A stretch of DNA of 64,000 bases. Source: Branchiostoma floridae (taxonomy: Eukaryota > Chordata > Leptocardii > Amphioxiformes > Branchiostomatidae). The translations under genes and the position numbers were made by a program. The notes under the pieces were generated by a model that saw nothing but the letters and a program-made list of their open reading frames with translations, had not been told where the DNA came from and ran no database searches. The stretch is from NCBI RefSeq assembly GCF_000003815.2, contig NC_049981.1, positions 11,760,964-11,824,963 on the forward strand. The letters run 5' to 3'. Below are positions 27,801-52,600 of the stretch, in pieces. Numbering within the stretch: the first letter of the stretch is position 1; each line of letters begins with the position of its first letter.

Positions 27801-30800
27801 CCACAGCATGCAAATAACTATCTCAAACATCAAAAGTTTATAATGTACTTGACTGTACTCTACAAGCAGAGGTTGGTGGGGAAAAATCGTGACCTTTTCC
27901 TTTCATCAATATTTTTCGACCGGCCTTCCCACCAACCATTTCGATGTGAGGAAGAAGTTTTGTATGATTGGCCCCCTTGCAGCTTGCTCTGGAACTGCAG
28001 GGGCGATTTTCTACATGTATTGTAGAGGAGTGTGTTTACCCTTCACCACAGGTCTGGAAGTGTCATAGCGGACACGAGCATCAGCTACAGGTCTGGTGGG
28101 TCAGCCCAGGGCTCGCCTGATGTCAGGTCGGCCATACAGAACACTCTCACTGCAGCCGTGGCCGGCGGGTCCCTGGGAAGCTTCACAGTAGACCCGAGCT
28201 CACTAGCCTTCACCGACCCGACAACGGTCAGCCCTACCCCGGGGGGTGGAGGTGGGGGTGGAGGCGGGGGTTTGGGAGTGGGCATCGGTGTGACCGGCGC
28301 GCTCTTTCCAACGACAGGATCGGGCGACTCAGCGATGTCTGAACCGGGAAGTAGTACAACGGCACGTACCCCTGCAAACATGACAGCGGGTATGCCAAGA
28401 CCTAATGTTACACTGGCTACAGTGGAAACTACAACAATGCCTCGTCCGGAAAATGTCACGTCACCTCGATCAGACAATATCACGATGTCTCACCTGCAGA
28501 ATTTTACAACTCCTCAACCAGATGGTGTTACAACGCCTCGTCCTGAAAACGTTACATCGCCTCGACCAGATGGTGTTACAACGCCTCGTCCTGAAAACGT
28601 TACATCGCCTCGACCAGATGGTGTTACAACGCATCGTCCTGAAAACGTTACATCGCCTCGACCAGATGGTGTTACAACGCATCGTCCTGAAAACGTTACA
28701 TCGCCTCGACCAGATAGTATTACAACGCATCGTCCTGAAAACGTTACATCGCCTCGACCAGATGGTGTTACATCACCTCGTCCTGAAAACGTTACATCGC
28801 CCCGACCGGATGGTGTTACAACGCCTCGTCCAGAAAACGCCACCATGGCTCAGTCTCCAAGCGTTTCATCTGGTGCTCCTGACAATGTGACAATGACACC
28901 TTTACAGCCACCGATCACCACATCTTCTCCAGTTGTAACAACAACAACAACAACAGATACAACTACAGCAGCTGAGCGTACGTACTTACTGATGTTTCCA
29001 CTGTATTGCCTTCAAATATCGTTATATATTTTTCGTTATATATTATATATTATATAATATACTTTATAAAGATAATAACTATTTGCCATATACACGTCTG
29101 TTATAAGTACCTGTCCGATTGATATTTGATTTTTTCATCCAGCTCCCAAACTTGAGGTTTCCCTGAAGCTGACCAGCGTGCCGTTCACACCTTCTCTTAA
29201 TAACCCAGAATCTCCGGAGTTCAAGAATCTGGCATCAAATGTTGAAGACACGGTAAGTAAAGCATCCCTGTATGTAGCTTTCTTCTTTAGCACCACGACA
29301 ATGCATTGTTTTACATTGATAGTCTCTAACACATTGCCCTCTTTCCCCAGTTCGACCAACTGTTTGCAAACAATCCTGGGTATGTCAGGACTAATGTTCG
29401 CGGATTTAGGTGAGCATGTTTACTTTGACTTTATCTAGATTTTGTGGTCTTGCAACTTTCATTGTTGGCATTGCCGTGGTAGTTTTATTGCAGCTGTATT
29501 GCCGTGTAACTATTTTGTCTTTTCTCTAAATTGTTGTACATCAGACAGGGCAGTGTTATCGCTGATACGGAGGTAGTTTTAGAAGACACCGGAGACTCTG
29601 GTCCGGACGTGTCTGCCGTCAGTGCGTCCATACAGAACACCCTAACGTCAGCCGTCTCCAATGGCTCACTGGGAAACTTCACGGTGGATCCCAGCTCACT
29701 GACCATCACCACACCGACAACTGCTCGGCCTACTGTTACACCAAACGTTACAGCGACACGACCAGACAACGCAACCAGTCCTCGAATGGACGGGGTTACA
29801 ACGCCTCGATCAGACAACGTTACGATGGGCCGCCCTGAAAACGCCACATCACACCGACCAGATGGTGTTACAACGCCTCGCTCTGAAAACGTTACATCTC
29901 CCCGACCGGATGGTGTTACAACGCGTCGTCCAGAAAACGTTACATCGCCTCGACCAGATGGTATTACAACGCCTCGCTCTGAAAACGTTACATCGCCCCG
30001 ACCGGATGGTGTTACAACGCCTCGTCCTGAAAACGTTACATCGCCTCGACCAGATGGTGTAACAACGCCTCGCTCTGAAAACGTTACATCACCCCGACCA
30101 GATAGTGTTACAACGCCTCATCCTGAAAACGTTACATCACCCCGACTGGATGGTGTTACAACGCCTCGTCCCGGAAACGTTACACAACCCCGACCAGACA
30201 GTGTTACAACGCCTCGTCCCGAAAACGCCACAATGGTTCAGTCTCCAGACGTTTCATCTGGTCCTCCTGACAGCGTCACGATGACGCCTTTACAGCCACA
30301 AACCACAACTGCACCAACTGAAACAACAACGACAGGTGCAACTACAACGGCAGCACGTAGGTTTAACACGTTGTGTCCGCTACTAAACTTATTTTATCTG
30401 TACTGCTTTTTAATGTAGATAGTTTCCTTACTTTATTCAATAATACTATGTTGTATCACTTATGTGTCATTGTGTGACAAATATATACTGCTTACGTCAA
30501 GCTTTTAGTTTCTTTTCATCGTAGATTGTACTTATTTTACTTTTTATCCTTCCAGCCCCGAAACTTGAGATTTCACTGACGTTTACCAGTGTGACGTTCA
30601 CGCCTACTCTCAACGACAAAAACTCTGCGGAGTTTAAAAATCTGGCAGCTAATGTTGCAAACACGGTAAGTACAAGGGTTTATTCCCAGTAATCATGAAA
30701 TCTGTTTACCAAACATTACAAAATCCGCGTAGATGTAAATTCTTTCAAAATTTTTCTTTATATCGAAGCCATTCAATCTTTTTTTTGTCAATTTTTCCAC

Positions 30801-33800
30801 AGTTTGACTTGTTATTTGTCAACGTACAAGGATACGTCAAGACAATTGTCCTCGGATTTAGGTGAGTAGTGTTCACTTGACTCTTTCTTAATCTGAATCT
30901 GAATTACACTTGATCAACGAGCTTTTATCAGCTTGATGGTGTAATTAAGACGCGCATTCTGGTCTACATGTTGGAAGGTACAACACTACATTGGGGTACA
31001 CAGAACCATGTCCCTATAGTTATCACTTAGAAATGTGTGATGTGTTTTATAAGACTTAAGCTGGGTAGCCATAATCATTGTTTATTAAGTGGCCATGTGC
31101 AGATACATACCTTCAATTGTCAAAAGACGATTTCCCCATCCCGACAAGTTAAGGGTTAATCAGCACTTGATATAAGTCACGGTTATTATTATGTTAACAT
31201 GTTAGATTAAATCCAGCACCCAGGTCGGTAGAAGCGACATTGCTATGAAACCAATGTACAATGACGCGTATATGAGAAAATGTTCGGAGCCACCAATTTA
31301 CTGAAATAGAGATAGGCTTTCTTCCTGTAGTAAGCATCCTTCAACAATTTTAGTCTACTTCAGTGTGTTCTTGTTGTACTTTTACCCCAGACAGGGCAGT
31401 GTTATCGCAGATACGGAGGTAGTTTTAGAAGACACCGGAGGCTCTGGTCCGGACTTGTCTGCCGTCAGTGCGTCCATACAGAACACCCTAACGTCAGCCG
31501 TCTCCAATGGCTCCCTGGGAAACTTCACGGTGGATCCCAGCTCACTGACCATCACCACACCGACAACTGCTCGTCCTACTGTTACACCAAACGTTACAGC
31601 GACACGGCCAGACAACGCAACCAGTCCTCGAATGGACGGGGATACAACGCCTCGATCAGACAACGTTACGATGGGTCGTCCTGAAAACGTTACATCGCCC
31701 CGACCGGATGGTGTTACAATGCCTCGTCCTGAAAACGTTACATCACCCCGACCAGATGGTATTACAACGCCTCGATCTGAAAACGTTCCATCACCGCGTC
31801 CTGAAAACGTTACATCGCCCCGACCGGATGGTGTTACAATGCCTCGTCCTGAAAACGTTACATCATCCCGACCGGATGGTGTTACAACGCCTCGTCCTGA
31901 AAACGCCACAATGACTCCGCGTGAAGACGTTACATCCGGTCCTCCTGACGTCATCAGGACGCCTTTACAGCCACAAATCACCACCACTGCTACAAAGAGT
32001 GAAACAACAACGACAGGTGTAACCACAACGGCTGAACGTAAGCTCAATGCATTGTGTTTAAAAATGTCAATATCTTCCTTTTTCTATTCCACCAATGTTT
32101 TGTTGTGTCAGACACGTTTCATTGAGCTACAAAATATATTGGTTACGTCAAACCTTAAGTTTCGTTTCGTCGTAGAGTTTGACTTATTTTTCATACTTTT
32201 GTGTATCCTTTACCAGCCCCGAAACTTGAGATTTCACTGACGTTTACCAGTGTGACGTTCACGCCTACTCTCAACGACAAAAACTCTGCGGAGTTCAAGA
32301 ATCTGGCAGCTAATGTTGCAAACACGGTAAGTGCAATTTCAAAATAATCACACTTCCGTCTCTGGCAGTGAAATTAAAGGAAAGTATCCGACTTCCTTTG
32401 AAGTCGTTCTTCTGTTTCTGGGTCATGACCAAACAATGATTGGGATCGACTATGATAAGACAAAAAACTTTTCGCAAAAATTTCGTCAATGATTTCTTGA
32501 TATCTTTACAAACAACAGTCCATACAAGTAGTCACTTACAGGCAGAAATAATGGATGATAAGGATTGATTCTTGTTAATAATCAAATATATTTTTTACGT
32601 TTATCAAACCTTATCAAATCTGTGTAGAAGTAAATGCTTTCAAATATCTGATACTAACTTTACCTTTTACATTCTTGTGTAATATTTCGTTTGCCTTTTT
32701 TCTATGTATATTGAAGTAGTTCTGACAATCTACTTCCATTTTTCCACAGTTTGACTTGTTATTTATCAACGTACAAGGATACGTCAAGACAATTGTCCTC
32801 GGATTCAGGTAAGCAATTTTCACTTGACTATCTCTTAATCTGAATCTGAATTGCTTATGATTATGGCCGCGCATTCTGTACTTCATGTTTGGAAGTATGA
32901 CACTGAAAGGAGTACTGAGAATCATGGCGTCCCACTTAACAATGTGTGATACCTTTTATAATACTTAAGCTAGTTACCTGTATTTATTATCTATTGGGTG
33001 TACATACCCCTAATTGTCAAACGAGGATTTCCACATCCTGAAAAGTTTATAGAACTCACCGGTATGGGGAACTAGTACGGTAGAAGCGAGTTTGCAGGGA
33101 AACTAATGTACAATATGACGTTACTTATGCGCATATGAGAAATTGTTCGGAGCCACAGACTTAATTTACTGTCAAGCTTTTCCTGCAGTAAGAACCTTTT
33201 AACAATTTCAGTCTGCTTCAGTGTGTTCTTGTTGTACTTTTACCTCAGACAGGGCAGTGTTATCGCAGATACGGAGGTGGTTTTAGAAGACACCGGAGAC
33301 TCTGGTCCGGACGTGTCTGCCGTCAGTGCGTCCATACAGAACACCCTAACGTCAGCCGTCTCCAATGGCTCACTGGGAAACTTCACGGTGGATCCCAGCT
33401 CACTGACCATCACCACACCGACAACTGCACGTCCTACTGTTGCACCAAACGTTACAGCAGCCCGACTTGAAAATACAACCAGACTGCAACCGAGTCCGCC
33501 AGATGTCACTACAAGTCTTCGACCTGACGGGGTTACAACGCCTCGATCAGACCACGTTACGACGGGTCGTCCTGAAAACGCTACAGCACCCATACCGGAT
33601 GGTGCTACAACACCTCGTCCTGAAAACGTTTCATCGTCTCGACCAGATGGTGTTACATCTCCTCGTCCTGAAAACGTTACATCACCTAGACCAGATGGTG
33701 TTACATCGCGTCGTTCTGAAAATGTTACATCGCCTCGTCCAGAAAATGCATCCTCGCCTCGCCCTACAATGGCTCGTCCGGACAACATGACCAGGCCGCC

Positions 33801-36800
33801 GACAGAGAATGTCACAAGACCCGATATTACAACACCTCGTCAAGAAAACGTCACCAGCCCCCGACCAGAAGTCACAACTCCCATGGCCACTAGACCAAAC
33901 GTAACTTCCGCAGAAAATGTCACGGACATACGGCCAGATATCACAACTCCTAGGGTCACTAGACCTGAGGCAACGTCAGCAGAAAACGCTACCAGGCCTG
34001 AAATAACTACAAGACAAAACGCCACGGGTCGTCGACCAGACCCCACAACTCCTGGCGCGACGAGACCCGACATAACAACGGGCCAAAACGCCACAACTCT
34101 GCGACCTGATGTTACAACTGCTGGAGCTACCAGACCTGACATGACTCCCAGAGAAAACGCCACACGTGCCCGTCCAGATGTCACCAGCCCTAGTGTAACC
34201 ACACCCGACATGACTACAGCTACAGCATGTGAGTTCCTTTCTTATACTTTGAAAGACAAGTGTTGTGAGCGTACTGCATTCCATGTGCAATAAGTCTTTT
34301 TTTGTGTATAGGAGCAGAGAAATGATTCAATGATCCTTTGCTGAATCTATCGGAGGCTGCACTTGTTAACGTTGTAACAGGCAAGATAAGAACACATTTT
34401 GCATGAAATTGAATGATGATCTGAGTTACCATGACGACAAATCTTCTTTCATTTCCAGCTTCCCTGGCCTTAGCCCTGACGCTGAGTGGCGAGTCATGGC
34501 GGTCCACCCTGAGTAACTCCAGCTCGGCTGACTTTCAGAACCTCGCATCAACCGTCACGTCTAACGTAAGAACATCATCTATTTATCGTCTGTATCTGTT
34601 CATGTACTTAATGCAGATTCTATCATGCATTTTGTGTCGTTATACACATGTTTGGACGTTTCGTGTGAAGCATTGGAGGGTATCTGTGTTGGCAGAACAT
34701 GTAAAATAGAGATAAATGTCGATAAAAACAACATTGCGGTTTACGGAATCAATGAAGAGAGTCATAAGGCTAGTACCAAAAGAGATGGGTCATTTCTTCA
34801 AATAGTTGATGAATGATGAATATTGGAGAATGAAGTCTGACGGTGCAACTTATAATTAAATTGCCAATGACAAGAATGTATCTCTTTTTCAACAGTTGCA
34901 AACCGAACTGGGGAGCACTCCTGGATACGTCCGGAGCGAAGTGACAGGGTTCAGGTAATGCCATGTAATTAAGTACTCTTAAATGCTACAATGGAAGCAG
35001 AAAAGTAAGCTCTTTTATCCAAATATTCATACTTTACATTTATATAAAGATTTTAACTTAAAACGTTATTTCTAGGCAGGGCAGTGTTATAGCAGACGTG
35101 AATGTTTACTACGCGGCGAGCGGCGGGTCCTCTGCGGCGGACGTCGAGAGTTCCCTGCTGACTCAGGCCAAAGCAGCGGTGTCCAGCGGGACCATTGGCA
35201 GCCTCACTGTCGATCCAACGTCACTGGATTACCTGTCAGGTAGGCGACATATTTATCACTGAAAAAAAATTCCTCGTGCATTTTGATAACCCAATTATAT
35301 CTGTATATATCTAATATATGTAGACATGTCTTTGTTGTGACCTGCAGGTAGCTCAGTTGAGAAAAATGTACAATAGTCTTCATTCATTCATAACGATATG
35401 GAGAGATTACTGTGACACGTGACCTCGCGGACTTCAGTGACGGGTCATTGGTATGGAAGTTTGTAATGCCCCCGTCACGGTTCTTTGAAGATTTGTTTTT
35501 GATCACATCACGTACTGGCACGGAGCTTGTCCGCAGAAATGCACCAATACTTTCCTACGATGCTTTCTCTCATCACCATTCTTGTACGTCGATCGCTGCG
35601 TCTTACGTGTGATGATATGTTGACATTGCTAATACATTTTTTTATCTACAGCTACATCGCCAGGTGTCACACAACCAGCTACAACAGCGGGTGCCTCGCA
35701 ACCGGCTATGACGCCAGGTGTCACACAACCGGCTACAACAGCGGGTGCCACACAACCTGCTATGACCCAAGGGGTCACACAACCAGCTACAACAGTGGGT
35801 GCCTCGCAACCGGCAACAACAGCGGGTGCCACACAATCTGCTATGACGCCAGGTGCCACACAACCGGCCATGACGCCAGGTGCCACACAACCAGCTGCAA
35901 CAGCGGGTGCCTCGCAACCGGCTATGACGCCAGGTGTCACACAACCAGCTGCAACAGCGGGTGCCACACAACCAGCTATGACGTCAGGTGCCACACAACC
36001 GGCAACAACAGCGGGTGCCACACAACCGGCAACAACGGCGGGTGCCTCGCAACCGGCGACAAGGCCTGTTGCCACCCAGGAAGCGACATCACCAGCCGAA
36101 CCGGCGTCATCACCAGCCACCACTGATGAGCCAACTACGGCAAAACGTACCACTAAAGCCCCAGGTGAGAATATACAGATACTCATGGTGCTGAAAACTA
36201 AAGGGTTAGGCTGTTCTAATTATATCTACGACACATTCCATCGTAGAGATGTTTCTCATATCTCTTATCAAACCTTCATTTTTCACTTACGATCTTGGCT
36301 AATTCACACTTTTGTATGAAAATACCAAAAGCATGAGAACCAGCTATTGAACTAGAATGATAAATTTTGCAAGCAAGTGCTCTGTTTATTCTTGCTGAAA
36401 AAGATAATGTAGGCGGAGAATTGCCCCACCGGATTCTGTCCTACCGCTTGCTACATACATGTAATGCAATCAAACACCACAGGGTGTGTACTACCTTACC
36501 AGGAACCATAGTAAAAGCCGGATATTCCACGTCAATGATCTTATTTCTTTGGAACGGTAATGAAATTTGAAGACACGTACCACAAACAACCCCCCCCCCC
36601 CGGTGAAAGTAAATATGATGTTAGATATGATCTTAACCGCATCATTCTATTTCTTCATTTACAGCCCAAAAGTTGTCGGTTTCCTTCACGATGACAAGTT
36701 TGACATATACTGCAGATCTCGGCGACAGCAACTCATCTCAATTCAAGAGCCTTGCATTAACTGTAGTAACACAGGTAAGTGTCTTTCAAACCTAATTTCA

Positions 36801-39800
36801 TTTCAGTTTTGCGTATCGGTATCCTTATCTTTGTAAGCGAAAGTTTAAAGATGATGCAAAATGACATCACTCTGTTGTATATACATTTCTATCCAGATGC
36901 TTACAATTTTGATTTTTCAATATTTGTAAAGCTCAATATCCTCTTGGTATAGTTAGTCACTCTCTTTGAATACTAATATGCAAGCTTTCATACTGGTAGT
37001 GTTTACTTTGGCTAGTATTTAGATAAAAATCCCCTCATGGCAGTAAGTAATAAAATTAAGCTAAACCCATGTCACGTGACCTGAAGTGTGACGTAAGCAA
37101 CGAGTCAAAGCTGCCCGGTAATCGATACCGCCGTTTCTGTTGAGGGATTGATTTCCTTGTGTTATCTTTTCTACAGATGACGCTTATACTGAGTTCACAG
37201 CCAGGGTTCGTCAGTGTAACAGTCCTACGGTTCCGGTAAGATAGGGTCCTATTTTAATGTAGAAGGTGCTGTAGAATGGGGGAAAATTAAAGGTACTGAG
37301 AAAATCCTCTCTTGAAGACAGAAGTTTAATGTCATATCATATATGTAACTGAATGAGAACAGTCTTTCATAATTTAATTACATTATTGTGGGATAAGTAG
37401 CATTGTGGACCTCTCCTCTTTCAAAGTCTTTGTTTTCATCATGGTTTTGGAATGCACTGACTTTCCCATCCGACCAGTCTCCAGCTACAGCATGCTGGCA
37501 TCTTCCCCCTCACATCCTGTCACTAGTCCGTATTCACATGACGAACACGCAATAACATAGGTCTCCTTTCTTTGCCTTCACCATGACTGATTTTTGGAAT
37601 GTGCTGACCTTCCCATCCTACCAGTATCCAGCTACGTCATCTCCCCCTCACACCCTGTGACTCATCCGTATTCACATAACTACGAACATGCAATAGGCCT
37701 CCGTGCATGAAGTTGGGAAGAAGGTCCATTATTTCACATTTTGTGTCAAGTGTATAACTATGAACTGTTTGTCGCATGATCCCCTTCAGCCAGGGAAGCG
37801 TGGTAGCTGACACAGAGGTTCAGGTGGAGCAACCGTCCAGTGGAGGAGCTGACCTGGCTAACGTCAGCTCAGCCGTACAGGACACGATAACCACGGCCGT
37901 GTCGAACGGGACGCTGGGCAACCTTACCGTGGATCCGAGCTCTCTACAGATATCTCCTGTCACGACGCCGAGCCCAAGTATGTAACCCATTCAAGATTAC
38001 ATTTATAAGAATGGAACGATGTTGGTGAATATTGCAAATTTTACTAAACTCAACTTCAGAACATCATGACCATCAAAAACTGGGACAACCAAGATTAGAA
38101 GATCCAAAATCACAACTTCAAAAATCAGGACGTCCAAATTCAGAACGTCCTAAACCAGAACATTCAATATCAGAACATCCAAGATCAGAGCATCAACAAA
38201 TCATTCACAACATTAAATTCATCGTAAACAAAAGTAAACAATAGTACCCTACACTAGATTCAAACAACAGTTCGACATGTGCAATATTTACAGTCAGAGG
38301 GATGTAACGTTACACGTTTTTAGAAATACCCACCAAGATGACAATAAGAAATGCTGTTGTCATTGGACATGCAGGGCTTGATACTTGAGTGTTAGTACCA
38401 CACAATTATTTTCTGTGTCAGTGTAGGTAGACGATGGTAACGAAATAAATCTGGCACGCAGAATTGAAGGAGATGAAAGGAAATAAAAGGATTCTTATTG
38501 TAATTGCATTATCTTGAAGCTTACTTGTAACTGTTTTATTGTTCCAGGTACAACTCCTTCACCAACTGAAGCAGGTAAGATGTTCGTTGCTCAGTGACTA
38601 TGTAGCTTTAACATGCAGTGCGACTTGAAATTGAGGTCACGGTCGGTTTGGATCCATGCCACAATCGGCAATTTCACTATTTGTCACAAGATGGCGCCCT
38701 GTCACTTTGACCATGGTACAACCACTTGCAATACGTGCTTCAATATACTGATACGTGCACGTGGTTTGAAGCATTTTGAGTCCAACAAGCAGCTGAATTT
38801 AGGGTTGTTGTTTGGCATTTTCCTAGGGTTGGCTAGCAAGCATGATTAGGCTTTCGTCGGTTTAAAGAGTAAGCCAATTTTAGTTCATAAAGACTAATTT
38901 AGGCACGACTCAAATGATGCATCTTAAGAATTCCAACGCGAATTTACTGCTGACTCATTCAAGTTTAAGACGTCTCAAGAGGAGAAGAGACTTTCAAGAT
39001 TTAACTCAAGTCGCGACGTATCAACACGTCTTTAGTCAAAGACTTTTGCTAACGTCGCAAGTACGAAGGACGTACCCGCTAAAAGCTAACGTCACATTGC
39101 CAAACTACGGCCAGGCGCGCCGAGCTGTTTGTGTAGACGAAATAGAAATGTATACGCAAAAACATACACAAATAATGCTCACGACTATTCTCTTTACGTC
39201 TTGTGCATTTTTGTGTCTTTTATGACTGGGCCTCGGTTCGGACCTAAACCGTTATCCCAGTCAACTGTGAAGTTCTAACAGTCTCCTGTCTGTCCTCTGC
39301 AGGTCACTACCAGACGGCGTTCATCTCCTTCGTACTGGACACCAATGTGGGAGCGGACGCCCTGGACCCCACATGTCCCTCGCACGACGAACTCACCAGG
39401 GAGATCGAACAAAACGTGAGTAGTACTACATATTTTATGACTGTTATGAAAGTGGGTTCATGACTTTTTCCTCTGCGATCAGCAATGATGATCCTTTTGG
39501 TGGAGAGAGGATATATAAGTCTATTCAAGTCTGCCTTTCCACTCTACAATTATTCAATAACAAAAAGTGTTCTTGTCGACTATCAAAGGGAGCGACAAAA
39601 CACACTACATAAAGTTACAGCTATCGTTCGATCACTGAGAACATAGCTATACTGCCTACAATATGACTGTATGATGTAATTAATGTCCGTTTACGTTTGA
39701 ATTCTCAGCTGGACGCGTTATTTGCTCATATACAAGGGTACAAGTCAGCAAAGGTCGTGTCTCGGAGGTAGGTGTTTCGTCTTTGTCCGAACAAAGTAAA

Positions 39801-40146
39801 TTTGCCCTCCCATACCGCGAGAGATCCGCTTAACAATCAAGGAGGTTATATTGTAACAATTAACCACCGTGAAATGTAATGACGATCAAGGACAACTTTT
39901 CCTTCAAAACGGAAGTCCATATGCAATGCTAGAACCTCTTTGCCTTTAGTTAAATCAAGCTTGAAACGACAAAAGACACGAGAGCGCCTTCGTCGAAGTA
40001 AGTAAGTCACGAGTAAAAGAAATTATCAAATAGATTACTCAGTTGCAAAATTTTATTTAAAGAGAGTAACGTTTTTTTTTGGTATTGACCATTTTCGTAA
40101 TGTTTACTTTTGCAGGAACGTCGAATCGGACAACAACGTGTACTAG
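21794..40146 (+). CDS. Secreted mucin-like protein with six SEA domains and C-terminal half-SEA (25 exons, complete)
   Basis: Exons: 21794-21863, 25724-26368, 26907-27016, 27626-27684, 28052-28977, 29143-29252, 29351-29409, 29545-30356, 30556-30665, 30803-30861, 31391-32037, 32217-32326, 32750-32808, 33249-34228, 34459-34565, 34896-34954, 35076-35239, 35652-36164, 36665-36774, 37177-37235, 37790-37977, 38548-38574, 39303-39415, 39709-39767, 40116-40146. Every junction is GT-AG and phase-consistent. The total is 6,186 nt, 2,062 codons with the stop. An in-frame ATG at 21770 would add eight residues. The protein has a signal peptide, six complete SEA domains (GSVIAD/GSVVAD), long Pro/Thr repeats and no transmembrane helix, so it is predicted to be secreted. 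Known SEA domains often self-cleave within G-S-V-x and occur in mucins and matrix proteins. Only one cysteine is present in the whole product. Splice choices were made by eye. Confidence 0.88.
22645..22690. repeat. GT microsatellite followed by G-run
   Basis: A (TG)n tract runs into GTGGG repeats and a homopolymeric G stretch within mucin intron 1. Simple repeat, no other content. Confidence 0.85.
22990..23808 (-). mobile_element. LINE fragment: RT C-terminal part and 3' UTR
   Basis: On the minus strand, frame 23806-23304 reads ADLKWATHVTHITKQSSKR..., then RPLLEYAAPTWSPG, EKIQRRACRTILG and EARRTLLCRKFGLRLL, and ends in LLNSS and a stop. This is the conserved segment after the RT domain of CR1/L2-like LINEs. 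About 300 bp of 3' UTR follow, ending in an ACAATTATG(TATAAT)-like tail near 22990. The element is 5'-truncated and lies antisense in intron 1 of the mucin gene. It belongs to a different family from the element at 16.3-18.1 kb. Confidence 0.85.
24445..24492. repeat. Telomere-like interstitial tract
   Basis: About eight CTAACC/CCCTAA/CCTTAA hexamers in a row, degenerate at several positions. The metazoan telomere unit on this strand is CCCTAA. The tract is short and imperfect, so it is probably a slippage product or repair scar and not a telomere. Confidence 0.7.
25724..26368 (+). CDS. Mucin gene exon 2: N-glycosylation-sequon repeat domain (PVTNATAPAA)
   Basis: 645 nt, phase 1 on both sides (acceptor TTTTCCCAG, donor CAAG|GTGGGT). 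After a Thr/Ala-rich lead it holds about 13 copies of a 10-residue unit of the type VTNAT(A/M)PA(A/V)P. Each unit contains an Asn-Ala-Thr sequon, so nearly every repeat can take an N-glycan as well as O-glycans on Thr. There is no cysteine. Antisense translation is also open (FVTGAAGIVA) because of the repeat, and is not regarded as coding. Upstream of the repeats lie further sequons such as NVT and NAT. Confidence 0.85.
26505..26880. repeat. Dispersed repeat (shared with 47.2 kb and 50.45 kb)
   Basis: The segment starting GGCCGACATTT.CTT.AGAGCAAATAC near 26517 reappears near 47183. Its distal end, a purine-rich AGAAGAAG tract followed by ACAATATATTTCACCA and TATGGCTGAAATATA, reappears near 50445-50520. 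It lies in mucin intron 2. Function and class are unknown; it resembles the ends of a non-coding interspersed element. Confidence 0.6.
26907..28205 (+). CDS. Mucin gene exons 3-5: SEA domain 1
   Basis: The domain is split as 26907-27016 (VAVSLSLTSETFQPALNDP..., phase 1 to 0), 27626-27684 (LNSALSSTPGYISSQVTGFR, phase 0 to 2) and the start of 28052-28977 (SGSVIADTSISYRSG... to FTVDPSSL). The order beta1/helix, helix/beta2, cleavage loop G-S-V-I-A-D, then the second half fits the SEA fold. The same three-exon layout recurs in every SEA of the gene. SEA1 is more divergent from SEA2-4 than those are from one another. Confidence 0.85.
27457..27534. repeat. 78-bp near-perfect palindrome in mucin intron 3
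   Basis: The sequence is centred on GGAATTCC (27491-27498) with arms starting TATAGAAAAATGCTAA on one side and its complement on the other, with only a few mismatches. A hairpin-forming mini-element of this kind is typical of small MITEs. No coding content. Confidence 0.75.
28052..28977 (+). CDS. Mucin gene exon 5: SEA1 second half plus 16-aa repeat array
   Basis: 926 nt, phase 2 in, phase 1 out (donor GAGC|GTACGT). The first ~52 residues finish SEA1. A glycine run (ten consecutive Gly after SPTP) and a Ser/Thr/Pro stretch follow. Then come about seven copies of a 48-nt unit coding SPRPDGVTTPRPENVT, each with an Asn-Val-Thr sequon, and a Thr-rich tail (TTTTTTDTTTAA). The array is open in other frames too (for example Leu/His-rich in +2); those are shadows of the repeat. 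Confidence 0.85.
29143..30356 (+). CDS. Mucin gene exons 6-8: SEA domain 2 and its repeat array
   Basis: Exons 29143-29252 (PKLEVSLKLTSVPFTPSL...), 29351-29409 (FDQLFANNPGYVRTNVRGFR) and 29545-30356 (QGSVIADTEVVLEDTGDSG...). The last exon continues into about nine 16-residue PRPDGVTTPR(P/S)ENVT units and a Thr-rich end. Phases 1-0-2-1 repeat exactly. The putative self-cleavage loop is Gly-Ser-Val-Ile. This is the first of three very similar consecutive modules. Confidence 0.88.
30556..32037 (+). CDS. Mucin gene exons 9-11: SEA domain 3 and its repeat array
   Basis: Exons 30556-30665 (PKLEISLTFTSVTFTPTL...), 30803-30861 (FDLLFVNVQGYVKTIVLGFR) and 31391-32037 (QGSVIADTEVVLEDTGGSG..., then a shorter array of ENVTSPRPDGVT units). 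By eye, exon 9 differs from exon 12 at only two of 110 positions, and exon 10 from exon 13 at two of 59. The introns are also alike, so this module and the next arose by a recent duplication. Confidence 0.88.
32217..34228 (+). CDS. Mucin gene exons 12-14: SEA domain 4 and long repeat array
   Basis: Exons 32217-32326, 32750-32808 and 33249-34228. The SEA part is nearly identical to SEA3. Exon 14 (980 nt) starts with the regular 16-residue units, then drifts into a looser pattern of the type TRPDITTxxQNAT with frequent NAT/NVT sequons and Arg-Pro pairs. It ends in phase 1 at GCAT|GTGAGT. No cysteine is encoded. The decay of the repeat toward the 3' end suggests that array homogenisation acts mainly on the 5' part. 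Confidence 0.87.
34459..35239 (+). CDS. Mucin gene exons 15-17: SEA domain 5
   Basis: Exons 34459-34565 (SLALALTLSGESWRSTLSNS..., one codon shorter than the other A exons), 34896-34954 (LQTELGSTPGYVRSEVTGFR) and 35076-35239 (QGSVIADVNVYYAASGG... to LTVDPTSLDYLS). This SEA exon ends directly after the domain, and its Pro/Thr-rich partner is a separate exon (35652-36164). The GSVIAD loop is kept. Confidence 0.87.
35652..36164 (+). CDS. Mucin gene exon 18: 9-aa repeat domain (TQPATTAGA)
   Basis: 513 nt, phase 1 on both sides. About 15 copies of a 27-nt unit of the form GA(T/S)QPA(T/M)T(A/P) precede a Thr/Pro/Lys-rich tail (KRTTKAPG). Unlike the other repeat exons it has no Asn sequons, so it should be modified only by O-glycans. 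Antisense and shifted frames are open because of the repeat (for example CHTTGYNSGC) and are rejected. Confidence 0.85.
36665..37977 (+). CDS. Mucin gene exons 19-21: SEA domain 6
   Basis: Exons 36665-36774 (AQKLSVSFTMTSLTYTADLG...), 37177-37235 (MTLILSSQPGFVSVTVLRFR) and 37790-37977 (QGSVVADTEVQVEQPSSG... to LTVDPSSLQISPVTTPSP). The loop is Gly-Ser-Val-Val. The exon phases equal those of the other modules. It is the last complete SEA in the protein. Confidence 0.87.
37421..37710. repeat. Tandem duplication (~140 bp, two copies) in mucin intron 20
   Basis: Two imperfect copies in a row share TTTGGAATG(C/T)(A/G)CTGAC, TTCCCATCC.ACCAGT.TCCAGCTAC and TCCGTATTCACAT. No coding role seen. Confidence 0.65.
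38055..38205. repeat. Degenerate intronic minisatellite (CCA/AGAACATC-rich)
   Basis: Repeats around TCAGAACATCCAAGATCAG of 15-17 bp lie between exons 21 and 22. The longest frame (Ser-Glu-His-Pro-Arg-like) has no acceptor/donor pair that fits the gene's phase, so I treat it as non-coding. Confidence 0.55.
38548..38574 (+). CDS. Mucin gene exon 22: 27-nt microexon
   Basis: Acceptor TTGTTCCAG and donor GCAG|GTAAGA enclose 27 nt, phase 1 in and out, coding STTPSPTEA. It bridges the Pro/Thr tail of SEA6 to the half-SEA. Its symmetric phase means that including or skipping it leaves the frame intact. Confidence 0.7.
39303..40146 (+). CDS. Mucin gene exons 23-25: C-terminal half-SEA and stop
   Basis: Exons 39303-39415 (HYQTAFISFVLDTNVGADAL... 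with LDPTCPSHDEL), 39709-39767 (LDALFAHIQGYKSAKVVSRR) and 40116-40146 (NVESDNNVY and stop). The first two exons match SEA exons A and B in length and phase. Where the G-S-V exon should follow, a 31-nt exon instead adds nine polar residues and ends the protein. The module therefore contains only the part of SEA that precedes the cleavage site. Its cysteine is the only one found in the whole 2,061-residue protein. Confidence 0.85.
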
Positions 40147-40587
40147 ATTATACTGAGGACACGTTGAATGTCAACTTCAAGAATTCAAAGTTTCTGTCTT
40201 GATCTTTATTGTTTTAGTTAGACCGAAATCGTCTTTTGTCTGATCTTTTATCTAGAATATCTATATTTAGGAAACATTAAATGTAAAGGAAAAGAAATAT
40301 AATGGCAATTTCATTTAGAACAAATGTTTCGTGAATGCAGGTTATGATTTGATATTAGTTTACGTATCAACTTATGATGGTGTTTTTTTCTCTATCAGTG
40401 GTCTTGGGAACTACTGGGTTTCACAAGTGATTTAAAATAATGAAATTATTTAATACACCCATACTTATAATGTTGTCTGTTTTTTTTTTCTAGTTGCAAA
40501 ATTAAAATATCCTTTTCCAAAGATCAGTATAAAACACATGTTAGATCTCTAAACAAAAGCTAATGTTGATGGTTGTAGGCTCTACTC

Positions 40588-40609
40588 AATAAATCAGACC
40601 TTCAATAAA
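40588..40609 (+). terminator. Polyadenylation signals of the mucin gene (candidate)
   Basis: Two AATAAA hexamers, at 40588-40593 and 40604-40609, lie about 450 bp after the stop codon at 40144-40146. The 3' UTR in between is AT-rich and without open frames of note. Confidence 0.5.
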
Positions 40610-42633
40610 TAACAGGCAGTGTCATGTTTACTTATATTTGTGCCGCACAGTCGAAGACTAACTTAAAATCTCTCTTTGCAATCGTGTTTCTCAATGCACA
40701 ATACGTCGATGATTTCTGTGTTATAAGTTTTGCATATTCAGCAAAGAACAAAGGAATATATATTGGTGGAGATTTAATTGTTTCGATCTTGTGAGGGTAA
40801 ATGCGTCATAGGTTCCAAACTGGAGCTATCGGTGTGTATGATACGGTAATTATGGCACCTCGCATTGATTGGAGTAACCCTGAGGGTAACAGCATTTAAG
40901 GGTCACAAAGTTTGATATCATAATTGTTCCCTAGGGGTATGAAACAAGCTGGCGGCAGCCAGAATTCCATTGGCGAGAAATCACGTGTTCGGCAACTATT
41001 TTTAGCATCCTATATATGCTGGAGAACCTGGAAGACGGGTTGTCATAAACGGCAAACCTTCTTGTGAGTCGGACGATCCGACACGGAGGGTTACCGCCCA
41101 TGTGTACTGAGTGAAATTAACTGTAAAATATCACTGGGTGGTACCGGTAACTTATTATACGCACAGATTGTCTGTCAGCTTGCCTTCCAAGGTCATGTCA
41201 ACAATCAATTTTATAAGTGCACTAATGACAAAGATTTCAGTTGATTTACAGTTTGATAACACTTTTTATTTTGAAAGGAGCTTTATGTAGAGTAAGAGTG
41301 ACCTTGATTATGAGACTACTGTTTGCTAACTGTGCAAGGTGACGAGGTTATAACAAGTCAATAAAACATATCTTTGTAGATGTCTCTCCCGCCATGTTTA
41401 TATCGCATTGATTTGTGGGTACTTTTCCTCTGCCAAATGAGAAATTGCACTGTTTAGATTTGGTCAGCATAAGAGTGAAAAGGGGTGGTGTTTTAAGTTT
41501 TAAAAGGGCATAAAAGCGAACGATTTGGTGACAGTAATTATAATAACATGTTCTACCTGTTTTCTTAAAACCACATACGTTCTTTGATTACCTCCCCCCT
41601 ATGATATTGATAAAAACCAAACATGTGCTGTCATACGTGAGTTGGGACAGTCCCATGGAATAGCCCGCTACAGTGCGCCTCCTAGTGACTTGCCTAATAT
41701 TGCAAGCACTGTGTCCAACCAGCAAGCACGTTGAAAATGTAATATGAATGCCACTGTTATAGTGGTGTCAACGATTAACGATTAAATCCAAACGATTACT
41801 TATAAGTTGGAATTTTGCTGAATTTGCCAAAGTTAAGACTATAAAAATAACATTTGCAGACAAATAAATAATATTTACCTTCACATGGTGTAACCTAATA
41901 ATCTACTGCTTTGTTTATTTTTACTGAAAAAATATTTCTGGTCATCAACCTCTCCAGCTCTTTCCTACCTTCTGCACATTATAATGCAGGTTCACCTTCT
42001 GTGAAGGTTAAAGTAGGAAGAAGAAAAACAGCAATGACAAAAAGAAATTATTCATGCATCGATAAAAGGTGGACTGTACATGTAGTGACGGTGCATCACC
42101 ACCACAAGTTGTGGATGAAATACGTGTGTCCTTGGTAACATTCAGACGATGGAGGATCTGTTCTACTTCTGGGTCAGGGCAACGACCCCATTATGTTAAA
42201 CACAGCTTTGACATGTCTGCTAAAATTGCAGGCTGACTTCGAGCTTCTTAACTTAGAATACAGCGAGTTGCCAGGCCGGGCCTATACACCCCTGAAATTG
42301 ACTAAGCCCGGGACTGCAAATTGTTTAACAGCGTCAAAAAAATGACCGGGATGTGATTAGTCAGCCAGGCGGGTTAGAGGCTTCCAGAGCGGAGGAAACC
42401 CAGCCTACAGCCCTGGGAGTGACCCATATGCAGATTACGACCTTCTGGTGATACCTGGACTGACCGGTAGTGGAGACAGACTCCCCGTGTGGTATATTGT
42501 TTAGACGTCGAGTGGGGGTATGTAAATTAATACTATGTAATGATAGTGCGGTCAGGAGGTGCCGATTCACTCCAAGCAGTCGACAGCACCTGGCGACAGC
42601 ACAAGAAAAAGGAACGCTGCTTTGGAGTACAGC
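40610..42633. other. Intergenic stretch between the two plus-strand SEA genes
   Basis: No exon recognised. A short dispersed repeat near 41835-41905 (ATTTGCAGACAAA... TTTACCTTCACATGGT) is related to the one at 18.9 kb. The promoter of the following gene should lie just before 42634, but no clear TATA box is seen at the usual distance. Confidence 0.5.
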
Positions 42634-42691
42634 ATGTCTAGAACACTTGGACTACTGCTGTTGTTAGTAACAGGCCACATATACCTTGCAG
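42634..42691 (+). CDS. Half-SEA gene exon 1: signal peptide
   Basis: ATG at 42634 opens MSRTLGLLLLLVTGHIYLA and the exon ends CTTGCAG|GTTAGC in phase 1. A hydrophobic Leu/Val core with a basic N-terminal residue supports secretion. This start is the only Met before the core within the exon. Confidence 0.78.
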
Positions 42692-44790
42692 GTTAGCAGT
42701 TTATCAACTTTTTTATAGGCAACATTGCCACGAATGGGTAATATATAGAACGGAAGTACGCTAGTGTCCTTTATAAGTGGCATAAGTGATGTTGAAGGGG
42801 AACTGTCGTACTTTCGCACTAAAATTTTTGTCCCCGTATTCACTCGATGTCTAGTTATTCGCATGAGTCGTAATGAAACAAATTGAATACTAGAAAGGTA
42901 ACATTTTCGCGGAAATGCAGAATGTTTTCATCGTAGCCTTTTGTCAAGCTACTCGCACACAATACTCTACTCTCTACCTTTAGGCTTGCTCTATGCTCGA
43001 GTAAAAAAACTACACCTGCTTGGTTTTGGACCAGGTATTCAACATAATCATACTGTTCCATTAGGCTCGCCCTATACTATTGTAGGTCAGTAAAAGAATT
43101 CCCATATGTATCTACAAAAACAGCTAATATATATCCTATGATCCTTTGATTGGCTACTAACGTCTGATGCAAAAATACATTGTAATATATTTTTCCCTTC
43201 TGAGGAAAACATAATAACACAATCTGCTTAACACGGTTACAACGGCTGTTTCTTCAGAGGCCAAAGATGTTTACGTCTCGTTCGTGGTTGACGCCGAGGT
43301 GGGGCCGGACAGTTTGGACCCGACCTGTCCGTCCTACGATGACCTCACAGCAGAGGTGGAGAGAAATGTGAGTCTGTGTCACACAACCGTACGACACAAA
43401 GTCTGTGTCGCACTATTATATACCATCCCTCTACTCACACCTAGTAACATTAGTACAAGGGACTCGAACGAACATGGGAACGATTGCTTAGTGTCCTCTT
43501 TGTAAGGACTGCAACGCGCCCCATTTCTTGGAAGCTTAGTGATTTCTCCTTTAGAACTTATCAGCCTAACACGTCAACTATGGTATCTTTGCCGTTGAGT
43601 TTGTCAAATGTAGCGTCAAGAAAGCATAAGACTTAGTGTAAATTCTATGTAATCATTCGAGCTTTTGTTGCTAAATACAGGCGTGTCTTCTGTGAACTAT
43701 CATGATATCAAATTGTGCCCAAACTGTGCCCAGGGCACAGTTTGACATAAACAGGGCCCGACAAGGTTGATAGGTCAGTGACCGTAAGGTAAACTCTGGA
43801 CGAACATGAGAATACCAAGGACTTGGAACTACTATCTATTGTGTGTGATTCTCTCACCTTTCTTACATTTCGTCTCTATAAAATCCCATCTTCTAGAACA
43901 TCTGTGGTGGGAACTAAGCATACGACAGGGCTGTACGCTTCGGGCTAGGTCACATAATGTCAGATCAGTGTTATCCACTTACTGCACAGGAACAAAAGAT
44001 AGCATAACCCCCTAGCACAGGGGTCATCTTGTTTTGCATTGTGCCATATTGTTGACAAAAACTAAACTTTCTACCATCATAATTCCGTTATAATTACGTG
44101 AATCCTACTAAGGAAATCTCTCCCAGCATCTTAAGGGGAGGGGAACTGTCCCTAGGAAACTTTGGTATTCCTATTAAAAGATAATTATTGGGCGTGGTAT
44201 CCACTCAAATTGTAACGCCATTTGCTTTGATGAAAGGTTATCTAATTGTTTGAAAGAAGCACTCCAAGTAGGGTAAAACATAGACCTGAATCAAAGCTGA
44301 CAGATACTTTGTCTTTGCAGATAGACAAGTCATTCTCTAGCATAGAGGGTTATGAGTCAGCTAACGTCGTCTCTAGGAGGTGAGTTTCAGTCACCTTTCT
44401 TTCGTGTGATGCAAATGCCTTTGATTGAATAACGAAGCTACGGTATGTTTTCAAGTCAAGCTGATCACATTATCTATGCGAGTGGTTTTGCACTGAAACT
44501 GGATACGGAACAGTATTTCACAACATCACAAAACATTGATGATCAAGAATTGGTACAATGTTATGCTGACTGGTTTGGTGTTATGTGGCACTCAAGGTTG
44601 ACTGCATTTTGTGGTGGATTCTTTAACAATCCTCTGACAGATTTTGATATTATGTTTTTCATTGAAACAGACATGCAGGATACGTTTTGCCAATGTCTGC
44701 TAAATAATATCATAGCCGTGATGGTTTCACAACGTATTTGCCATGTTTTTCTCTTTCAGAAAAGTCAAACAGGACGAAAATCTACCCTGA
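42634..44790 (+). CDS. Small secreted half-SEA protein, 85 aa (4 exons, complete)
   Basis: Exons 42634-42691, 43258-43367, 44321-44379 and 44760-44790, 258 nt in total (86 codons with the stop), all GT-AG with phases 1, 0, 2. The signal peptide is MSRTLGLLLLLVTGHIYLA. The mature part has VYVSFVVDAEVGPDSL with LDPTCPSYDDL, then IDKSFSSIEGYESANVVSRR and KVKQDENLP. It is clearly a paralogue of the C-terminal module of the upstream mucin gene: 110 versus 113, 59 versus 59 and 31 versus 31 nt exons. It keeps the single cysteine and lacks the SEA cleavage loop and second half. Its function is unknown. It could be a free binding or capping unit for SEA proteins; that is inference. Confidence 0.85.
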
Positions 44791-45095: not shown

Positions 45096-45101
45096 AATAA
45101 A
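45096..45101 (+). terminator. Polyadenylation signal of the half-SEA gene (candidate)
   Basis: AATAAA about 300 bp after the stop at 44788-44790; a second AATAAA is at 45288-45293. The opposing gene ends at 45702, so the two genes converge with less than 1 kb between stops. Confidence 0.45.
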
Positions 45102-45701: not shown

Positions 45702-46640
45702 TTAGTTATTTTCACTGCCCTCTTCATCCTCGTCTCTGAAAGCACAAAATGATTGAACTTTTAGCTGCAGTTTGAGGGAGATGTGTAATGAGTGTCATTT
45801 TCTCTTTTCAAAAATGACACCATATACTTTGAGAGTCATAAAGGTGCACGTCAAACGACTGCGAATTCATGCAAAAATATCAACTAATTCGCTTGTTTGG
45901 TAACAAAACAATTTTGATGCTGACAAAAATGATGTCATATCAATGTAAAAATCAAAAGTAAAAAAGCAAATTCATAGAATTTAAGATAAAATATATGTTG
46001 AAAGTCGAATGGTACTTACAGCAGCATAGCTACCTCCAAGTCTGTATAACCCTCGATGTCACCTATTAAGTCTATAAGCTGGAAAAGGAACAAAGTGTTA
46101 GCTTGAATTCTAAAACATCGATGGTAATACATAAATACTGATGAGGCAGCAAACATATTGTAATTACCTTCACCGAGAATGTTTGCGTCTATGGGTTTGT
46201 GGACAGCAGAACTCAAAAAGCTCGCGATGGATCATAATGATATTTGATAATGGCCCCCCTGACGGCTTTATACGGTACTGCAGCGGAACTTCCGGTTTTG
46301 ATATCACGTGTTCTAGACTTGTGTGGTACGACCGTAGATCGTACATGTGATTAGTGGAGCATAGAGTAACTGGTGCAGAATTAGAAAGAGAGAACTCAAG
46401 GAGGGATTGATGTACCGTCATGATTTTGGTATGTTCTGTATTAAAGAAGTTGTCAGTAACGCTGTCGATCTTTAGATAGACAACGACAGTTACGTTCCTA
46501 TAGTACATACAGCTAACTTACCTGGGATGTAATGTTGTTTGCGGCTGTTGCGTATGCTGCCTGGTCCATAAGAATGTCATCGTTGTTTTCTAGCATCACG
46601 AAGGATCCCGCCAAACAGTCTATTGCTGGGGGTGGGATCG
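45702..46640 (-). CDS. Mosaic gene last three exons: half-SEA and stop
   Basis: Exons 46522-46640 (IPPPAIDCLAGSFVMLENND... to ANNITSQ), 46020-46078 (LIDLIGDIEGYTDLEVAMLL) and 45702-45735 (DEDEEGSENN, stop). Lengths 119, 59 and 34 nt and phases 1-0-2 mirror the half-SEA ends of both plus-strand genes. The GSV cleavage exon is again replaced by a tiny acidic last exon. A cysteine lies just before the first strand, not at the position used in the other two genes. An Asn-Ile-Thr sequon is present. Confidence 0.8.
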
Positions 46641-49600: not shown

Positions 49601-52600
49601 CGGAAGGTCACGTCAGGAGGCCAAAAGAAAACAAATTTCCCCTCAGAAAAGTGCCAAAATTAATCATTTTAAAGTTGTTTATGTCAAAAATATGACTGGA
49701 ATCTTGTTACCAAGTATCTAATGCCTATCTATACCAAATTTCAGGTCATTTAATTGTAATACCAGGGTACAGGAGCCAAAAGTGTCCTTTTTTGGTCAAA
49801 AATTGGCCAAAAATCGCAAAAATAAGCATTTTGTTGCACTGTACACCAACAGTGTTATTGAATTTATATGAAGGTATTATCAAGGCACATCTGTGTCAGA
49901 TTTCAGCTCATTCGGTTGCAATACCAAGGTACAGGAGCCAAAAGTGTCCTTTTTTGGTCAAAAATTGGTCAAAAAATCGCAAAAATAAGCATTTTGTTGT
50001 ACTGTACACCAAAAGTGTTATTGAATTTATATGGGGGCATTATCAAGGCACATCTCCGTCAAATTTCAGCTCATTTGGTTGTAATACCAGGGTACAGGGG
50101 CCAAAAGTGTCCTTTTTTGGTCAAAAATTGGTCAAAAAATCGCAAAAATAAGCATTTTGTTGTAGTGTACACCAAAAGTGTTATCGAATTTATATGGGGG
50201 CATTATCAAGGCACATCTCTGTCAAATTTCAGCTCATTTGGTTGTAATACCAGGGTACAGGGGCCAAAATATACAGTTTTGGTCTAAAATTGACCAAAAA
50301 AATCTCAATAAAATCATTTTAGAGGCAGATATGAAAAAACTGAGAAAAAAGCATCAAGGTATTGGCCCATTCTACCCCTGTGCCAAATTTCAGGTCATTC
50401 AGTCCAGGAACAGCGGAGATGAATCACTTTGAAGATTTGACAGGAGAAAGAAAGAAGAAGAAGAAAGAAACATTACGAATACAATATATTTCACCATACT
50501 ATGTATGGCTGAAATATAAATATACGATACATACAATACATAACACCTATTAGGAGGTGTAGACGGGACGGAACTGCGACATATTTTAGTAAAACGCTGT
50601 TTTGGCATTGAAGTATCGAAGAACAAAAGCATAGCAATGTTTTTATTTTTATTCAATGGTCAATACTCAACAAGACCAAAGGTAACTTAAATGTGTGACC
50701 TTGAGGCTATTCCAAGGTTACGGCTTACGTGAATAGCACTGTAACAGCATCTCTTCACCCTGAGTCAGATACGTCATGCTGGAAGCCATTTCAACTGCTC
50801 ACTAGGAGTGAAGACTAACTGACGCCATAGGAAAACCAGAGTTTCATTTCACTGCACCAAAGTTGTAAAGCATTAAAAGAAAAAACAGCTTTACTTACGC
50901 TTTTGACAGATGTATCCTTGTAGATCTGCACAGACCTCAGGGTTCCATCCGTATGGAGGGGTTCCTGATGGATCCATGGCGGCACAAAACCTCAGCTGGG
51001 TCGGCCTACTCGCAGGGTTGAAGCTGTCAACCCACAGCTCGTCGATCAAAACCTCTGATCCGTCGGAGTACTCCCAAGCCTCTGAGGGAGGGTCATACCG
51101 AACGCCGACGCCGTAAGCAGTACCGTTGAGGGAGGAATTCTTCGCCATTTGGATGATGAACGCGAGGAATCCGTGCGTTGTTCTGTTGCTGACGTAGACT
51201 GGCACAGCGCCGACGTCATCGCAAGCATTTTCAAAGTCTTCGAAGTTGATGTTTCTGCCGCTACCGACGCTCTCGTTAAAGAACAAGTAGCACACGTCGT
51301 TGTACCCGTACCCGTTGGTGAAGTCATCAGTCAGGCAAGCTAATGTAGGATACATTCGAAGTATTAGAATTAAACAGCACATGCTTGGAGATATCTACTG
51401 TAGTCTGAACGATAATCACTGTCACATATGGTACTCAATTAAAAAAACGATACTCACGCTCGATATCGAACTCTGGCATTGCAGGCGCTGTTGGTTGCGG
51501 TGTTGTGGCAGGGATTGCTAAAACAATAACAAAAATATTAAGTCTTGGTAACACACTGATTCGCCGTTAAATGTTGCTATAACAAATCTTTTCCAAGACT
51601 TTTAAAATTTCCATGAGTAAAAAAAAAAGAAGATGCTTACCCAATTGACAGATGTATCCATCAAAATCTTCACACGGTGCCGGGTCCCATCCGTAGATCG
51701 GGGTCCCTGTTGGACTCATCACCGCACAGTGGTCCGTGATGGGCGGGTTTGTCGCTGGATCGTACGTATCCACCCACAGTTCCTCTATCAGCACGTCTGA
51801 GTTGTCCATGTACTCCCACACGGCTGTCCCAGCGTTCCACTGAACCCCGACGCCGAAAGCAGATCCAGTGAGTGAGTTGTCGTTTTGGATGACGAAGACC
51901 AAGAAGTGATGAGTGACGTTGTCTGTCACGTACACAGGTATGCCACCGAGTCGACCACAGGCGTTGTTGAAGTCTTCGAAGTTTGTGCTCGCACCAAGAC
52001 TCTCGTTGACGAAAACGTAACAGATGCCGTTGTAACCGTATGAAAATTGAAACATATTCGCAAAACAAGCTGTAAAAAGATATATGTTGCAATGTGAATG
52101 ATTATTCAAATCATCATTGAGTCCAAATTGTACAGAATCTTGTTAGAAATTATATCTACCGCAAAACATATAATGTATAAGCTCCGGTGACATGATCTTT
52201 TGGGGTGTGTATACGGGCGGTCTCTCATTTCGTTTATTTTTCAATTCACTGCAAGACATGATATTATTTAGCCAATTAAACCTAGCAAATTATAGTTATA
52301 GTATGTTAGCAAAGTCTTAAGTGGCAGAACTAAGTAAAACTTACGTTCAAACTGGAAGGGTCCTGAAAATGAAGGAGTTTAGTCGTTAGATACAGAGTTT
52401 AAAAATCGAACACATACAGGATGTAGTAGGCAAAAGGGATGTGGGCTAAAGTTTGAAACTTCTCATAATGCAAGAGTAACATTTCCGAACCGGGGCCCGG
52501 CTGGGCTGTCCGCCAGAGTGAAGAATACATCTATGTGTGTATCAAGAAATATATACAAATTATGTTCATGAAGAATTTGCTTTTCACGTTTAGCGTCTTT

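Follow-up and report, generated by a model that had tools for sequence, protein, structure and literature searches.

The 64,000-base stretch of the Branchiostoma floridae genome analysed here (contig NC_049981.1, positions 11,760,964 to 11,824,963, referred to as the window) has 0 N, a GC content of 0.40 and genes of animal type. Three of these genes, namely a secreted mucin gene and a small gene for an 85-residue protein (referred to as the 85-aa gene) on the plus strand and a mosaic gene on the minus strand, were predicted to end in what resembles the first half of a SEA domain (referred to as half-SEA, and as hM, h85 and hMos for the mucin, 85-aa and mosaic gene, respectively). The SEA-type modules in the window are composed of three exon types, with exon A encoding the beta1 strand and first helix (phase 1 to 0), exon B the second helix and beta2 strand (phase 0 to 2), and exon C, entered in phase 2, the G-S-V sequence. 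Hidden Markov models (HMMs) of these exons were run on 2821 six-frame fragments from both strands of the whole window and revealed 13 A, 13 B and 10 C exons, not counting four weak additional matches with E-values of 0.56 to 4.5 that were discarded. Ten of the 13 A+B pairs were followed by a C exon, yielding six complete modules in the mucin gene and four in the mosaic gene, while the three pairs without one were the ends of the mucin, 85-aa and mosaic genes. All 10 C exons sat behind their own A+B pair, with no orphan C-half among them. The A and B models of this census had been seeded with the halves, making their recovery of the halves circular, but the C model had not, and at E up to 5 it detected no C exon downstream of any half-SEA within the window.

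The half-SEA exons were subsequently re-derived from splice sites and phases, with the last-exon acceptors set by eye and the signal peptides judged from hydropathy and by eye. The anatomy given in an earlier note on this DNA (A exons of 110-119 nucleotides (nt), B exons of 59 nt and last exons of 31, 31 and 34 nt) matched the re-derived exons (Table 1), and its statement that the tiny last exon replaces the G-S-V exon is in line with the census giving no C exon for these three genes. In the complete modules, exon A measured 107-125 nt and exon B 59 nt in eight and 62 nt in two of them. By way of their terminal exon, the predicted chains of all three genes end at the SEA cleavage loop, and each tiny last exon holds a stop that is followed by AATAAA (the two signals of the mosaic gene lying in a convergent region). 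As these ends are predicted from the DNA, the half-SEA exons might in reality be spliced to a distant or unassembled G-S-V exon. Given the lack of a downstream C exon in the window, the stop and AATAAA after each last exon and the gap-free sequence (0 N), such a gene-model error is hardly credible. To the extent that sequence can tell, these are genuine gene ends and no artefact of a missing exon in the window.

Table 1. Positions of the half-SEA gene ends, complete SEA-type modules and associated features in the window.
Feature	Position	Strand	Basis
Mucin half-SEA exon A, 113 nt, phase 1 to 0, has LDPTCPS	39303..39415	+	HMM, splice sites
Mucin half-SEA exon B, 59 nt, phase 0 to 2	39709..39767	+	HMM, splice sites
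Mucin last coding exon, 31 nt, replacing the G-S-V exon; AATAAA at 40588 and 40604	40116..40146	+	
85-aa gene signal-peptide exon, phase 1 out	42634..42691	+	
85-aa gene half-SEA exon A, 110 nt, has LDPTCPS with the gene's only Cys	43258..43367	+	
85-aa gene half-SEA exon B, 59 nt	44321..44379	+	HMM, splice sites
85-aa gene last coding exon, 31 nt; AATAAA at 45096	44760..44790	+	
Mosaic half-SEA exon A, 119 nt (104 if acceptor 46625), one Cys (IDC) before beta1	46522..46640	-	weaker homology
Mosaic half-SEA exon B, 59 nt	46020..46078	-	HMM, splice sites
Mosaic last coding exon, 34 nt, acidic tail DEDEEGSENN	45702..45735	-	
Secreted mucin gene, 25 predicted exons, 2061 residues	21794..40146	+	24/24 junctions GT/AG, one open frame
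Complete SEA S1	26907..28214 (A 26907-27016, B 27626-27684, C from 28052)	+	exon HMMs
Complete SEA S2	29143..29710	+	exon HMMs, Pfam test
Complete SEA S3	30556..31556	+	exon HMMs
Complete SEA S4	32217..33414	+	exon HMMs
Complete SEA S5	34459..35232	+	exon HMMs
Complete SEA S6	36665..37955	+	exon HMMs, Pfam test
Complete SEA m1b, mosaic gene	57900..58653	-	exon HMMs, Pfam test
SEA-like m2b, mosaic gene (GYVLAD for GSV)	56332..57694	-	exon HMMs; without Pfam SEA match
Complete SEA m1a, mosaic gene	53964..54668	-	exon HMMs
SEA-like m2a, mosaic gene (GYVLAD)	52770..53792	-	exon HMMs
Two C-type-lectin-like domains, upstream of mosaic half-SEA	50897..52074	-	second = Pfam Lectin_C, E 1.3e-8

The relation of the three halves to SEA domains was examined with their A and B exons joined. 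Against an HMM of the N-halves of the 10 complete modules, hM scored 15.3 bits and h85 18.1 bits, with 0 of 2000 shuffles scoring as high in either case, and hMos scored 6.5 bits, with 1 of 2000 shuffles as high (hmmsearch assigned a score to 1810, 1823 and 1620 of the 2000 shuffles, respectively, and left the remainder unscored). It should be noted that near-copies among the 10 complete modules (S3/S4, m1a/m1b and m2a/m2b) reduce them to about seven independent ones. Single-comparison E-values for hM, h85 and hMos were 5.8e-6, 1.2e-7 and 6.9e-5 against the plus-strand SEAs alone, and 0.0045, 9.7e-5 and 0.13 against the minus-strand SEAs alone, and the HMM of the plus-strand SEAs scored hM and h85 above all four minus-strand modules. 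Moreover, profile-profile alignment (hhalign) of hM and h85 with the complete SEAs (8 of the 10 modules, the near-copies S4 and m2a being left out) yielded a P of 4.4e-7 and placed half-SEA positions 6-58 on the SEA N-half only. These data suggest that hM and h85 are very probably SEA N-halves, so that the resemblance to an SEA N-fragment proposed earlier for all three ends is borne out for these two by the shuffles and the hhalign alignment. For hMos the resemblance is weak, and its assignment as a SEA half comes mainly from its exon order, phases and 59-nt B exon.

Comparison of the two plus-strand halves revealed 35 of 65 residues to be identical, with the LDPTCPS motif letter-identical in both. 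The proportion of nonsynonymous differences (pN) was 0.28 and that of synonymous differences (pS) 0.65 overall (pN at least equal to pS in 1 of 2000 bootstraps), and 0.26 and 0.68, respectively, within A+B (0 of 2000 bootstraps), while the tiny last exons taken alone (9 codons) gave no sign of selection (pN 0.42, pS 0.36). Introns and untranslated regions (UTRs) of the mucin and 85-aa genes could not be aligned, with no match beyond 9-12 bases, and similarity of the 3′ UTRs or introns of the two genes was accordingly rejected. The codon differences indicate that the plus-strand half-SEAs are under purifying selection, and hM and h85 look like old duplicates held by it. The halves could alternatively be relics, in which exon C was lost and the truncated SEA was tolerated as a leftover. 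This would fit the tiny last exons being without selection of their own, and retention of the intron at the cleavage loop would yield such an end with no other change needed, but the excess of pS over pN in A+B and the identity of LDPTCPS between hM and h85 render a relic highly improbable.

The intron between exons B and C is in phase 2 and coincides with the SEA cleavage loop; if retained, it would lead to an immediate stop in all 13 modules, with ends reading for example ...VTGFR. Because a phase-2 intron with a GTAA, GTGA or GTAG donor always yields such a stop, the latter is a by-product of the phase and does not indicate selection. Products of this type appear to exist in human: according to the available part of PMC2830182, exon 6 of GPR110 isoform 2, which can be secreted, is spliced to a terminal exon specific to it (7a), and in isoform 3 translation stops in frame right where that same intron begins. 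The cloning primer of isoform 3 encodes the end V-T-Q-F-R, which corresponds to the residues preceding N-G-S-I-V-A of the GPR110 (ADGRF1) SEA domain. Judged from this match, isoforms 2 and 3 appear to be natural half-SEA products with the same cut site (PMC2830182, in part), ending at the cleavage loop with the G-S-V exon replaced, as in the three genes described here. They are alternative products of a receptor gene, however, whereas the present halves have dedicated genes, and the part of PMC2830182 consulted refers to them as truncated rather than as half-SEA. The earlier note's view that such a family is undescribed therefore has to be toned down for the type of product, which seems to have this human precedent, but dedicated half-SEA genes do look new: among the matches listed for the open-access literature, the text available mentioned no dedicated half-SEA gene, no mucin closed by a half-SEA and no conserved cysteine in one.

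The predicted mucin comprises a signal peptide, six complete SEAs, long T/P/N-rich repeats and the C-terminal half-SEA, and its model counts 371 T, 209 S and 249 P together with 77 N-glycosylation sequons. No membrane anchor was evident in it past the signal peptide (maximal 19-residue mean hydropathy of 1.27), and with its signal peptide, its T/S/P-rich, predictedly glycosylated repeats and no such anchor it has the features of a secreted mucin. Its signal exon has two candidates (21770/21794-21863 and 22554/22575-22644), of which the first was taken; the second would bring an extra cysteine, within the signal peptide. The 2061-residue model contains exactly one cysteine, at position 2019, in the LDPTCPS motif of the half-SEA. 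The 85-residue protein, which consists of a signal peptide and a 66-residue remainder made up of the half-SEA module alone, likewise has exactly one cysteine, again in LDPTCPS. In total, 0 cysteines were found in any of the 10 complete SEAs, versus one in each of the three halves. The two lectin-like domains of the mosaic gene have six cysteines each (counted from their translations), such that the cysteine of hMos seems to be without an evident partner in those two domains. A lone cysteine in a secreted chain forms a bond with another chain or with a small thiol, or remains free. Because these are the only fates available to the lone cysteine, the half-SEA can be read as a joining module.

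The SEA-type sheet has its helices on one face only (ICA512 text, in the part available), and the SEA-fold ectodomain of ICA512 is described as forming dimers in solution through strand pairing (PMC3174154, excerpt). With the beta1 register set from residue alternation rather than from structure, the hydropathy of the outward face amounted to 2.07 in hM, 1.73 in hMos and 0.70 in h85, compared to -2.93 to 0.97 in the complete SEAs. Hydrophobicity of the outward face is thus clear for hM and hMos and mild for h85, which adds a little to the case. The phenylalanine adjoining the cleavage site was kept in 8 of the 10 complete modules and absent from all three halves.

Our preferred explanation, to which we assign a probability of roughly 0.45, is that the half-SEA, kept by selection, most likely serves at the C-terminus as a module for joining chains, with a disulfide through the cysteine of LDPTCPS as its lock; its pairing, disulfide, capping function and origin are what we infer from the above. 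Specifically, the half-SEA would constitute a SEA N-half (beta1, helices and beta2) that ends at the would-be cleavage point, and two such halves, coming either from two mucins or from one mucin and the free 85-aa protein, would associate via the surfaces left bare by the missing C-half. The pair would then be locked by an intermolecular disulfide between the lone LDPTCPS cysteines, so that a secreted mucin without membrane anchor might gain a means to dimerise, with the 85-aa protein serving as its small partner, cap or competitor. Such a module probably originated when the phase-2 intron of the cleavage loop was converted to a 3′ end. In a wider version that we consider somewhat unlikely, the mucin would be joined end to end by its half-SEA, with its one cysteine as the lock, and the joining would be capped or tuned by the free 66-residue half from the neighbouring gene. 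Many SEA genes might then yield such halves unnoticed, either through protein cleavage after the G or through retention of the intron at the same loop.

Instead of pairing with each other, half-SEAs might replace the N-half in the cleaved SEA of another chain, thereby capping or crosslinking it non-covalently. Cleaved partners are likely to be nearby, as G-S-V is carried by S1-S6 and m1a/m1b, and cleaved SEA halves are reported to remain associated without a covalent bond (PMC6954182 and PMC5560680, both in excerpt). Such an exchange would nevertheless require free C-halves, while every C-half in the window has its N-half in cis; in addition, the phenylalanine before the cleavage site is the residue lost from the halves, and the cysteine would be left without a role. 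Because each half has one cysteine and the complete SEAs have none, covalent pairing is favoured over exchange, which we regard as distinctly unlikely. Of the split-domain assembly envisaged in the earlier note, a role in association thus remains plausible, but insertion into the SEAs of other chains is opposed by the missing orphan C-half, the lost phenylalanine and a cysteine that points to covalent pairing. Alternatively, the 85-aa protein could be a free secreted peptide (a ligand, inhibitor or defence peptide) in which the half-SEA fold is retained for a different purpose, and the mucin end a separate anchor or targeting tail. Its build of a signal peptide plus 66 residues of pure half-SEA module, and amino acids that are conserved while the introns are unalignable, are consistent with this, but it would leave unexplained why the same lone cysteine motif occurs in a mucin model that is otherwise free of cysteine, and we deem it unlikely.

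A number of observations weigh against the half-SEA as a disulfide-locked SEA half, and the first of these concern its homology. When the single-exon models of A and B were derived solely from the complete modules, the same window scan listed 0 of the 3 halves, and the Pfam SEA model (PF01390) matched 0 of the 3 halves compared to 3 of the 4 complete modules tested. Searching PDB (177,635 sequences, E up to 10) with h85 returned only 8hc0_B (E 1.5, not significant), which comprises 57 residues of human ADGRF1/GPR110 and aligns as a SEA N-fragment. The same chain came first with the hM+h85 profile, ahead of ribosomal uS2 and a sphingomyelinase, although none of these matches was significant (E 0.089, 0.65 and 1.7, respectively). 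With hM alone, only two uS2 sequences (E 0.097 and 0.36) and no SEA were obtained, and hMos yielded 6iuf_A (E 0.18, not significant). Taken at face value, the absent Pfam match, the single-exon models missing the halves and the non-significant PDB matches might indicate a different small fold that shares only its exon phases with SEA. We give this next to no weight, since the joined A+B of hM and h85 outscored 2000 of 2000 shuffles, the hhalign alignment (P 4.4e-7) was in the right register, and the 59-nt B exon is shared along with the phases.

The remaining counterpoints bear on the disulfide, selection and origin. In a symmetric model of two halves with a ferredoxin fold, the two cysteines would come to lie at opposite ends, such that the disulfide might join separate pairs rather than the two partners. 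The cysteine of hMos occupies a different place (IDC, before beta1), and the outward-face value of h85 (0.70) is below that of the complete S5 (0.97). In addition, pS between the two plus-strand halves is high, with synonymous rates (dS) of 1.3 to 2.7 depending on the method, making the ratio of nonsynonymous to synonymous rates (dN/dS) a rough one. In a tree, hM and h85 were grouped in 96 of 100 replicates while hMos sat on a long branch; a single origin of all three halves was rejected as proven, as the tree implies 2 changes and the halves form one group in 20% of bootstrap trees. Finally, of the two GPR110 isoforms only isoform 2 was found in the medium, and not isoform 3, whose end is a bare half-SEA (PMC2830182, available part).

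Several known systems resemble parts of the proposed joining module. The N-fragment of the cleaved MUC1 SEA (PDB 6bsb/2acm; chain 6bsb_A, 57 residues, end FRPG) has about the same size and register as the halves, but is generated by cleavage and remains with the C-half of its own domain, whereas the half-SEA genes encode no C-half. Secreted gel-forming mucins dimerise by a C-terminal cystine-knot, and a cysteine-poor stretch joined by a C-terminal disulfide module would act alike; unlike these mucins, the present model has one cysteine in all and therefore no cystine knot. Schistosoma SEA proteins are reported to oligomerise, possibly through disulfides, which is similar to what is proposed for the half-SEA, but their SEA is complete (about 120 residues) with the cleavage site present (PMC3886910, in excerpt). 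An engineered N-terminal piece of matriptase that includes half a SEA, fused to EGFP, has also been expressed in cells (PMC7015431, in excerpt).

Some further features of the three genes and their surroundings were observed. A 574-residue open frame at 16431-18155 on the minus strand, located upstream of the mucin gene, matched reverse transcriptase (RVT_1, E 1.1e-15). Within the mucin gene, S3 and S4 (30556-31556 and 32217-33414, plus strand) are near-identical in both their A+B and C parts, probably as a result of recent tandem duplication. The mosaic gene has its block of two SEAs in duplicate, at 52770-54668 and at 56332-58653 on the minus strand; the copies are nearly unchanged and are separated by a T/P/E-rich stretch at about 55300-56200. 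Its m2 modules read GYVLAD where G-S-V is expected (52770-52913 and 56332-56475, minus strand) and are probably SEA-like modules without self-cleavage. The m1 C exons (57870-58038 and 53934-54102, minus strand) read into a stop (..VEQFGWFLPFD) with AATAAA soon after it (plus-strand TTTATT at 57816 and 53879), and also hold a weak in-phase donor (TTG|GTTGGT, 5/9) towards the next SEA module. Retention of both stop and donor by the two copies suggests alternative 3′ ends, to judge from these signals. Of the two lectin-like domains, only the second was matched by Pfam at E 0.01, and the first was named from its likeness to it. Two perfect 76-nt tandem copies (46996-47147) lie near exon A of the mosaic half-SEA. 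Four Fz (frizzled cysteine-rich) matches, one of which is below the Pfam cut-off, and a weak MAM match, also below cut-off, were found within 60036-63633 on the minus strand, upstream in what is probably the mosaic gene. A WD40-like match at 874-1155 on the minus strand (E 1.2e-4, below the Pfam cut-off) is probably an exon of another gene at the start of the window.

If the half-SEA indeed acts as proposed, half of a self-cleaving and shedding domain would have been turned into a stand-alone joining module. This would in turn provide a route for linking secreted mucins that is unreported among the matches listed for the open-access literature, as far as the excerpts show. The phase-2 intron at the cleavage loop would then amount to a simple rule by which a soluble half-domain can be obtained from any such SEA gene, and truncated isoforms such as those of GPR110 would become candidate partners or competitors of the cleaved receptor.

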